A DNA stretch of 64,000 nt, from the NCBI RefSeq assembly GCF_000021645.1, contig NC_011661.1:962723-1026722 (forward strand), in the 5' to 3' direction. Shown piece by piece: positions 19,694-21,539 of this stretch. Position numbers and translations under genes: made by a program. The notes under the pieces were generated by a model. It saw only the letters and a program-made list of their open reading frames with translations. It did no database searches and was not told the DNA's origin. Each line of letters opens with the position of its first letter. Within the stretch, counting starts at the first letter, position 1. The stretch comes from Dictyoglomus turgidum DSM 6724. GTDB taxonomy: Bacteria > Dictyoglomota > Dictyoglomia > Dictyoglomales > Dictyoglomaceae.

Positions 19694-20593
19694 GTGGAAT
19701 ACTTTGAGTTGATGTTTAAAACAGCAAAAGAATTAGAAGAGTCTATAGTGGCTATTTTGGAGGATGTAGATTCCATAGGTATAGCTATAGAAGATAACTT
19801 TTTTGATGAATCTATTCTTTGGGATTATATAGATAAAAGTTTTTCAGAGAGAAATTATATTCTTATAAAAGCTTATTTTGATCGGAATGTAGATATAGAT
19901 AGAATAATTGATAAAATAAGAACAAAAATTAAGGAGATATTTGGAGAAGCAAAGGTGGAGATAGAGTATAGGATTATTAGAGAAGAAGACTGGACTAATA
20001 AGTGGAAGAAATATGCAAAGCCAATATATTTAGATAGAATTGTAGTTCTACCCTCTTGGGAGGAAATAGGAAACGTTGAAGATAGAATCCTCATTAGAAT
20101 AGATCCTGGAATGGCTTTTGGAACAGGAAATCATCCCACTACTATTATGTGTATTGAGATGCTTCAAAAATATCTAAAAGAGGGAATGGATGTTTTAGAT
20201 GTAGGAACTGGATCAGGAATTCTCTCTATTGTTGCTAAAAAGCTTGGAGGAGATAAGGTTAAAGGGGTTGATATTGATGAAAAGGCTATAGAGGTTGCAA
20301 AGAAAAATGCAGAAGGGAATCATGTAGAAGTGGAGTTTCAGAAAAATGATCTAATAGATGGAATAAATGAAAAATACGATATAGTTGTAGCAAATTTAAT
20401 TGCCGAGATTATTTTAAAACTAAATGCTAATGTAAAAAGGGTTTTGAAGACAGATGGAATATATATTGTTTCGGGAATTGTACAAGAAAAGTTAGACATG
20501 ATTTTAAACTCTTTAAGAGAAAGTGGTTTTAAATTGTTAGAAGTAAAAGAAAAAGAAGATTGGTACACGGTTGTGGCTCAAAATGAAGATTAG
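19694..20593 (+). CDS. prmA: Ribosomal protein L11 methyltransferase
   Basis: 299 residues from GTG 19694. It is a SAM-dependent class I methyltransferase that trimethylates L11. The N-terminal substrate domain spans about 1-90, the PrmA hallmark GMAFGTGNHPTT is at 139-150, SAM motif I VLDVGTGSGILS at 167-178 and VVANLIAEIIL near 228. The target L11 gene is not in this window. Its last 11 nt overlap the disrupted DUF1284 gene. Confidence 0.93.
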   Translation: MEYFELMFKTAKELEESIVAILEDVDSIGIAIEDNFFDESILWDYIDKSFSERNYILIKAYFDRNVDIDRIIDKIRTKIKEIFGEAKVEIEYRIIREEDWTNKWKKYAKPIYLDRIVVLPSWEEIGNVEDRILIRIDPGMAFGTGNHPTTIMCIEMLQKYLKEGMDVLDVGTGSGILSIVAKKLGGDKVKGVDIDEKAIEVAKKNAEGNHVEVEFQKNDLIDGINEKYDIVVANLIAEIILKLNANVKRVLKTDGIYIVSGIVQEKLDMILNSLRESGFKLLEVKEKEDWYTVVAQNED

Positions 20594-20817
20594 GGGACAT
20601 CATTTACTTTGTCTTTTACATTTTGAAGGAAAGGGATATTCAAGAGATTTTATAGAGAATATGTATAAAATAAAGGAAGCTCTGGAGAAGGGAAAAGTTT
20701 TCTTCGTGCTAAACAGTTGTGATGATATATGTAGGAAATGTCCTTATATGGAAGGTGGTCTTATGTGGCGATTGTTCTTGGTTCTTTATATGTAAAGAGA
20801 AGAACTTGTTCAAGTAG
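20583..20817 (+). pseudogene. DUF1284 gene interrupted by a +1 frameshift and shortened
   Basis: The first part, from ATG 20583, reads KIRGHHLLCLLHFEGKGYS and later DDICRKCP, which match the start and Cys cluster of DUF1284 proteins. The frame then ends early at 20793-20795. In the +1 frame from about 20752 the sequence continues as LCGDCSWFFICKEKNLFK to the TAG at 20815-20817, which resembles the C-terminal C-x-x-C-W-x-x-x-x-C end of the same family. The middle of the domain (roughly 50 residues by comparison with typical members) is missing. A decayed gene is most likely; a sequencing slip or a programmed shift is possible. The family function is unknown, with conserved His/Cys suggesting metal binding. 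Confidence 0.55.
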
Positions 20818-20831
20818 GAGGGCAGGAAATT

Positions 20832-21539
20832 ATGTATAATAAAGAAAATTTTCCTGCCTATTTTTTATGTTTTGATGATACCTATTTTAATCAGAGAAAT
20901 CTTATAAAATTTGGAAAGATCATAGATTTAAGAGCTTTTACTCAAGTAAAGTATCTTTGCTCATATGATAAGTTAGAAGAAATTGGAAAGTTTGTTGGTT
21001 CTGAAAAGGGAATTAAATTTTTAGGAAAAAGCGATTTTCATTATCTTACCTATCTATTTGTGAGGAATATTAAGGTTAAGTTTAACTTTATTGTAATAGA
21101 TCATCATCTAGATTTTAAAAACACTTTTGATGGATATATTAGCTGTGGCTCCTGGTTAAGAGATGTTCTAAAACTTCCTTTAGTTGAAAAAATTTTTTTA
21201 ATTACTTCCGATAATAATACCATGAAGGTACCTAATAAACTAATAATAGTGAATAAGTTTAGCATTTTGGAAGACGTATTAAGAAGGTTGCCTATTTATA
21301 TAAGTATAGATAAAGATATTTTGGACAAGAAATATTTAAGTACTAACTGGGAGCAAGGCAACATGAATCTTGATGAGTTTTTGAATTTATTAAATTTTCT
21401 TTCTCATTTTAATGTTATTGGTGTGGATGTTTGCGGAGAACCTGATTTTAATTTAGCTGAGTATAAAAAGAGTGAACAATTAAACTTGATGATTTATAGT
21501 ATTTTTGCTAAAAATATCTCTCTTAAAATTTCTGCTTAA
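20832..21539 (+). CDS. Arginase/agmatinase-fold protein of unknown substrate
   Basis: 235 residues, shorter than usual ureohydrolases (about 300). All six manganese ligands of the arginase family can be matched: H70 in KSDFHYLT, D90-H92-D94 in DHHLD, and D160 and D162 in SIDKD. GVDVCGEPD near 197-205 matches a conserved late strand. The motif around the first ligand lacks the canonical GGDHS. An ISCGSW segment (103-108) marks a distinct subfamily seen in anaerobes. Catalysis on arginine, agmatine or another guanidino or amide compound is inference. AGGAGG at 20816-20821 precedes ATG 20832. It directly follows the broken DUF1284 gene. Confidence 0.7.
   Translation: MYNKENFPAYFLCFDDTYFNQRNLIKFGKIIDLRAFTQVKYLCSYDKLEEIGKFVGSEKGIKFLGKSDFHYLTYLFVRNIKVKFNFIVIDHHLDFKNTFDGYISCGSWLRDVLKLPLVEKIFLITSDNNTMKVPNKLIIVNKFSILEDVLRRLPIYISIDKDILDKKYLSTNWEQGNMNLDEFLNLLNFLSHFNVIGVDVCGEPDFNLAEYKKSEQLNLMIYSIFAKNISLKISA

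Follow-up and report, generated by a model that had tools for sequence, protein, structure and literature searches.

The window analyzed here, 64 kb of the complete 1,855,560-base genome of Dictyoglomus turgidum, carries a gene for a small hydrolase that, judged by its residue pattern, is a real and conserved arginase relative from a widespread bacterial family, one in which the residues of the two-metal site have been kept and the parts devoted to arginine-type recognition appear to have been lost. Our preferred reading, held with about even confidence, is that the protein hydrolyzes C-N bonds at a predicted binuclear metal site, that guanidines are probably not what it cleaves, and that its substrate is perhaps an N-acyl or N-formyl compound.

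The open reading frame starts with ATG and comprises 235 codons (Table 1). A profile search against ureohydrolases, as proposed in an earlier note made from the sequence alone, matched the protein to Pfam PF00491 (Arginase) at 25.9 bits, above the curated cut-off of 22, and PF00491 was also detected in 38 of 48 aligned relatives (E <= 0.01). NCBIfam returned only agmatinase models below their cut-offs (TIGR01230, 25.2 bits against a cut-off of 174.3), and PHROGs matched none of the 48 relatives; no specific family model was found among these, in keeping with the apparently uncharacterized branch of the earlier note. Full-length relatives (E <= 3.8e-56) were found in 8 of the 60 genomes searched, the window's own genome counted, and three further weak matches in that search were ordinary agmatinases by sequence. 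Orthologues were present in 7/7 Dictyoglomaceae genomes, the nearest being 70% identical. Comparison with the nearest species over 234 codons gave dN 0.19 and dS 1.26 for the hydrolase, as against dN 0.20 and dS 1.01 for the neighboring gene prmA; the ratios are rough because dS is near saturation in both. Both genes are clearly constrained, i.e., under purifying selection.

Table 1. Features of the hydrolase gene and its upstream neighbors, numbered from the first base of the window.
Feature	Position	Strand	Basis
prmA, upstream gene	19694..20593	+	PF06325, E 2.7e-85
Broken DUF1284 gene, N-terminal part, overlapping the prmA end	20583..20795	+	PF06935, 36.1 bits, profile positions 1-42 of 102
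DUF1284 C-terminal tail in another frame (DCSWFFICKEKNLFK, then stop)	20770..20817	+	Frame read; same tail in intact relative
AGGAGGG, probable ribosome-binding site	20816..20822	+	Read from sequence
Arginase-fold hydrolase gene, 235 aa	20832..21539	+	ORF and translation, Pfam Arginase, AlphaFold2 model
H70, first metal ligand, within GKSDFHYLT (in place of GGDHS)	21039..21041	+	hhalign column mapping
D90-x-H92-x-D94, metal ligands	21099..21113	+	60/60 branch rows; hhalign mapping
C105-G-S-W108, C105 at the arginase proton-shuttle His position	21144..21155	+	hhalign mapping; 60/60 branch rows
D160-K-D162, metal ligands	21309..21317	+	60/60 branch rows
TNWEQG (in place of TGTPEPGG)	21342..21359	+	W173 in 59/60 rows, F in 1/60
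D199-V-C-G202-E203, G202 at the guanidinium-binding Glu position	21426..21440	+	hhalign mapping; branch counts

An AlphaFold2 model of the hydrolase, built from an 8-row alignment (pLDDT 86.1, pTM 0.88), predicts the three-layer alpha-beta-alpha fold of arginases. When the model was searched with Foldseek, the best PDB matches were agmatinases, guanidinopropionase, guanidinase and formimidoylglutamase (best E 8.9e-10), and VIA-align 2 superposed 216 residues on an arginase domain with Z 19.6 and rmsd 3.2, many arginases being tied. As to histone-deacetylase-like amidohydrolases, which would have a mononuclear Zn site and a His pair, the rows shown by both fold searches were ureohydrolases, and the ligand set is of the arginase type. 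In arginases, the metal ligands are expected at strand ends; in the model, H70, D90-D94 and D160-D162 lie at or just after the ends of strands 61-66, 84-89 and 155-160. A profile-profile alignment (hhalign, 98.7% probability) mapped H70, DxHxD and DxD onto the canonical ligands. The final residue is Ala in 8/8 rows of the alignment of Dictyoglomaceae plus one further genome (A1), within a tail that the model places with low confidence.

A scan of named genomes yielded 43 loci, one of viral contigs yielded a single locus and plasmids yielded further loci. The branch was found in Dictyoglomota, Thermodesulfovibrio, Bacillota, Bacteroidales, alphaproteobacterial and Xanthomonas plasmids and one viral contig, with gut Lachnospiraceae and Bacteroidales among its carriers. 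The 43 named relatives and the viral one were collected with peptide patterns, i.e., Y[IV]SIDKD(I) and an N-terminal pattern; C105, W108, G202 and the ligands H70 and D90-D94 all lay outside these patterns. The relatives were arranged in a core alignment of 48 members (A2) and a wider one of 12 (A6), which hhalign joined with a probability of 100; the core alignment matched 14 canonical proteins at 98.7. This canonical set is small, consisting of weak hits of the same searches and the genome's own agmatinase. One arginase-family match without the shuttle His (L075) was left out of the canonical set, and one member with a masked stretch (L074) was left out of the wide set. The joint alignment and tree comprised 74 rows (60 branch, 14 canonical); L059, L061, L066 and L069, which by eye carry SCGxW and DICGE, and L119-L121 were left out of the tree. 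A branch with SH-aLRT support of 100 separated the canonical proteins from the hydrolase, in agreement with the earlier suggestion of a separate lineage. Two rows, L072 and L073, form a sister lineage that has an extended N terminus, DCGSW, M or L at the K161 position and Ala at that of the guanidinium Glu. A phage family was also considered and rejected, PHROGs having matched 0/48 members; on the viral side there were the one viral contig and three weak unannotated phage records. On that IMG/VR contig, the gene (L058:4815-5639) is a divergent member lying between ribonucleotide reductase-like and RecD-like helicase ORFs, both named by eye.

The six metal ligands that the earlier note had proposed, i.e., H70, D90, H92, D94, D160 and D162, were all located at the residue numbers it gave. 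The first was His in 59/60 branch rows, the remaining row being truncated, and D90, H92, D94, D160 and D162 were each present in 60/60, although the invariance of Y156-I163 in the core alignment arises partly from how its members were selected, because the search patterns covered these residues. The protein is indeed short, at 235 residues compared with roughly 270-320 in canonical agmatinases and arginases, and GGDHS is absent. The hydrolase shares with canonical PF00491 enzymes (e.g., the genome's own L012 and E. coli 7lox) the fold, the six ligands, DxHxD and SxDxD, but lacks the DP that follows SxDxDxx. Where the canonical enzymes have GG(D/E)H with an acid before the ligand, the hydrolase has GKSDFH; the residue before the first ligand was aromatic in 58/60 branch rows and D/E in 12/14 canonical rows.

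Two further replacements had escaped the earlier note. The ISCGSW segment, which it had correctly pointed out in the translation, aligns as the SHGT/SHAT segment with Cys in place of the catalytic His, and Gly stands at the position of the Glu that grips the guanidinium. We take the C105 position to be that of the arginase proton shuttle His141, and the G202 position to be that of the guanidinium-binding Glu277, a numbering that for E277 agrees with PMC10028609. At the former, Cys was present in 60/60 branch rows and His in 12/14 canonical rows; at the latter, 58/60 branch rows had Gly and 2/60 Ala, whereas Glu was found in 14/14 canonical rows. Neither the shuttle His nor the guanidinium Glu thus occurs in the branch, which has a Cys and Trp motif instead: W108 was present in 60/60 rows. 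K161 was conserved in 58/60, and position 203, beside the lost Glu, was E/D in 53/60. A Cys at position 201 was found in 46/48 core members and 4/12 of the wide set; since it is not near-invariant in the latter, we kept it out of the argument. DFH/NYH, SCGxW, TNWxQG and D-x-x-G together form a signature for the branch, on which no paper was found in the open-licence literature searched.

The simplest inference from this pattern is that the nucleophile machinery has been kept and guanidinium recognition lost. We infer that the protein is a small, soluble hydrolase with the arginase (ureohydrolase) fold and would bind two divalent metals, probably Mn2+, through the six ligands, with a metal-bridging hydroxide attacking a carbon-nitrogen bond in an arginase-like manner. 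W108, W173 and Y71 would be likely to reshape the pocket, and C105 may serve as a proton relay or a substrate contact. Because both guanidinium-facing carboxylates are gone, the protein probably does not act on guanidino compounds resembling arginine or agmatine, and its substrate may instead be of an amide type (N-acyl or N-formyl) or some other non-guanidinium C-N compound. Counting toward this reading, the genome already has a canonical agmatinase, 0.44 Mb from the hydrolase gene and beside a SpeD-like ORF (SpeD by eye).

First among the alternatives, and in our view unlikely, is that the protein is still a guanidine hydrolase, acting either on small molecules as an arginase/agmatinase variant or on peptides as a peptide arginase. 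The guanidinium would then be gripped by E203 or a different acid, and C105 would shuttle the proton. The weak agmatinase match to TIGR01230 leans this way, and the frequent acid at position 203 might replace the lost Glu, a point against our preferred reading, although 7/60 rows have no acid there and both known guanidinium-facing acids are missing. A Cys at the shuttle position leaves guanidino chemistry possible, since rat arginase H141C was deposited, according to the title of 1hqg, with ornithine and urea bound. Among structural relatives, the N-omega-hydroxy-L-arginine hydrolase of 6lug and 9ixe, which we take to be DcsB, shares the arginase fold with the hydrolase (Z 18.5) and both have a Cys near the site. 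Cys86 of DcsB presumably replaces a metal ligand, as the titles of 7eul and 9ixe also suggest, whereas the first ligand of our hydrolase is His and its Cys lies at the shuttle position.

Peptide arginases bear on the same alternative. The OspR type (PF12640/UPF0489) keeps the metal ligands and has lost the shuttle His and Glu277, as in the hydrolase; for OspR, it has been proposed that the acid preceding the first ligand takes over (PMC10028609). The hydrolase branch has lost this acid as well, which favors our preferred reading. That OspR works without H141 and E277 counts against that reading. The enteropeptin arginase KgrD is a peptide arginase inside pfam00491, i.e., another divergent member of the hydrolase's own Pfam family (PMC12703449). 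Membership of PF12640 was nevertheless rejected: 0/48 branch members matched it (E <= 0.01), hhalign against five UPF0489 rows gave 25.8%, and the hydrolase lacks the EEH(N/H)EAF and LDIDLDYFSC motifs. PF12640 had no matches in the seven genomes G000-G006 either, and no RiPP-like gene was recognized among the neighbors read in outline.

The preferred reading, a C-N hydrolase of non-guanidinium compounds, can be set beside the genomic context of distant homologues on proteobacterial plasmids, which is not that of the D. turgidum gene itself. At nine such loci, the homologue was accompanied by class III aminotransferase-type and GNAT/FemAB-like genes in 9/9, and by genes of the MtnX-like HAD phosphatase, alpha/beta hydrolase and EamA/permease types in 7/9; exporters, a fatty-acid desaturase or a cyclopropane-fatty-acid synthase-like gene were also present at several loci. 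For the Rhizobium cluster, scans with Pfam and NCBIfam confirmed what had been assigned as HAD, aminotransferase, hydrolase and FemAB-like, and the best match of one of its EamA proteins was ArnE, below cut-off. The cluster recurs on plasmids (L122-L130) of Rhizobiales, Roseomonas, Bartonella and Xanthomonas, with HAD phosphatase, class III aminotransferase, arginase-like, ArnE-like, alpha/beta hydrolase and FemAB-like genes; no paper on it or its product was found in the open-licence literature searched. This content, the sole hint of a pathway, suggests amino-lipid or natural-product assembly, into which a deformylase- or deacylase-like step would fit by analogy with ArnD. It is possible, as a tentative extension, that the branch has turned from guanidine to amide-type chemistry as a putative deacylase or deformylase of an amine metabolite, acting alone in anaerobes and, in Rhizobiales and Xanthomonas, built into aminotransferase/FemAB-like/ArnE-like clusters for lipids or natural products.

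Public annotation labels many members of the branch "arginase family protein" or "arginase", and metabolic models would assign arginase or agmatinase activity to them, against which the residue pattern argues. The branch signature makes this mis-annotation easy to correct. As the branch is widespread (78/113 genomes of one order), its true reaction bears on how anaerobes of the gut and thermophilic ones handle nitrogen or amines, and also on the unrecognized plasmid-borne cluster of plant-associated bacteria.

We consider it distinctly improbable that the protein is non-catalytic, i.e., a metal or ligand sensor or a pseudoenzyme of arginase fold. The replacement of the canonical catalytic and substrate residues would be in keeping with such a role, as would a solitary gene with no conserved partner: among 489 ORFs around 47 core loci, the largest non-target cluster occurred at 6/47, so that the core branch has no conserved operon partner, which also counts against our preferred reading. 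Every ligand, however, has been kept across phyla, and C105, W108, T171 and W173 are new (near-)invariant residues, unlike those of a decaying active site.

In the window, the ORFs at about 16.6-26.1 kb encode lgt, a D-Ala-D-Ala ligase-like protein, an S4-domain protein, prmA, a DUF1284 remnant, tRNA-Gln, tRNA-Glu, groEL/groES and glycosyltransferases; four were scanned with Pfam and the others, the tRNAs excepted, were named by eye. The list is consistent with the earlier observation that no arginine or polyamine gene is nearby. The DUF1284 gene has kept its first part and has its last residues in another frame, from which we conclude that it was broken by an internal out-of-frame deletion. 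It is intact beside the hydrolase gene in three Dictyoglomaceae genomes (G002, G005 and G006), lies on other contigs in G001 and G004, with one internal stop in the latter, and was not found in the 72%-complete G003. Being adjacent and intact in three genomes and broken in the window, it is an operon neighbor in the Dictyoglomaceae lineage. The idea that the hydrolase acts together with DUF1284, a small Cys/His-rich protein with six invariant Cys in 12 aligned rows, and is now orphaned in D. turgidum is very improbable, since outside Dictyoglomaceae DUF1284 occurred in 1/9 family-positive genomes as against 24/370 others (Fisher p 0.46), another order had the hydrolase in 78/113 genomes and DUF1284 in 0/113, and the hydrolase appears constrained despite the broken partner. 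Across 386 genomes, 16 had a clear branch member (E < 1e-20; 13 weaker matches, limit 1e-8, excluded), 31 had DUF1284 and 7 had both, six of these being Dictyoglomaceae. The former partnership proposed in the earlier note thus stands weakly, i.e., for adjacency within the family and the breakage in the window, and fails in the co-occurrence check elsewhere that the note had itself suggested; the counts rule out a strict partnership, and DUF1284 is not an obligate partner of the hydrolase.

DUF1284 itself (20583-20817; L002:1102-1482) has invariant C10, C50, C53, C61, C111 and C114 together with His and Trp in the 12 aligned members, and is likely to be a small metal-binding protein. No paper on it was found in the open-licence literature searched. 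Its confident model (pLDDT 90.7) had no PDB match at E <= 0.001, and the predicted fold is perhaps one unseen so far.

At other loci of the branch, peptide deformylase was found beside the hydrolase gene twice (L030, by motif, and L120), which is too few for use. Neighbors recognized by eye included lgt, at Blautia-like loci, and in Pseudobutyrivibrio TrkA/TrkH. A small Cys-rich protein, YgbA-like by eye, was encoded near the hydrolase gene in a Bacteroidales MAG (L029:6698-6967) and in Terrisporobacter mayombei (L047:7453-7722), the copies being 52-55% identical.
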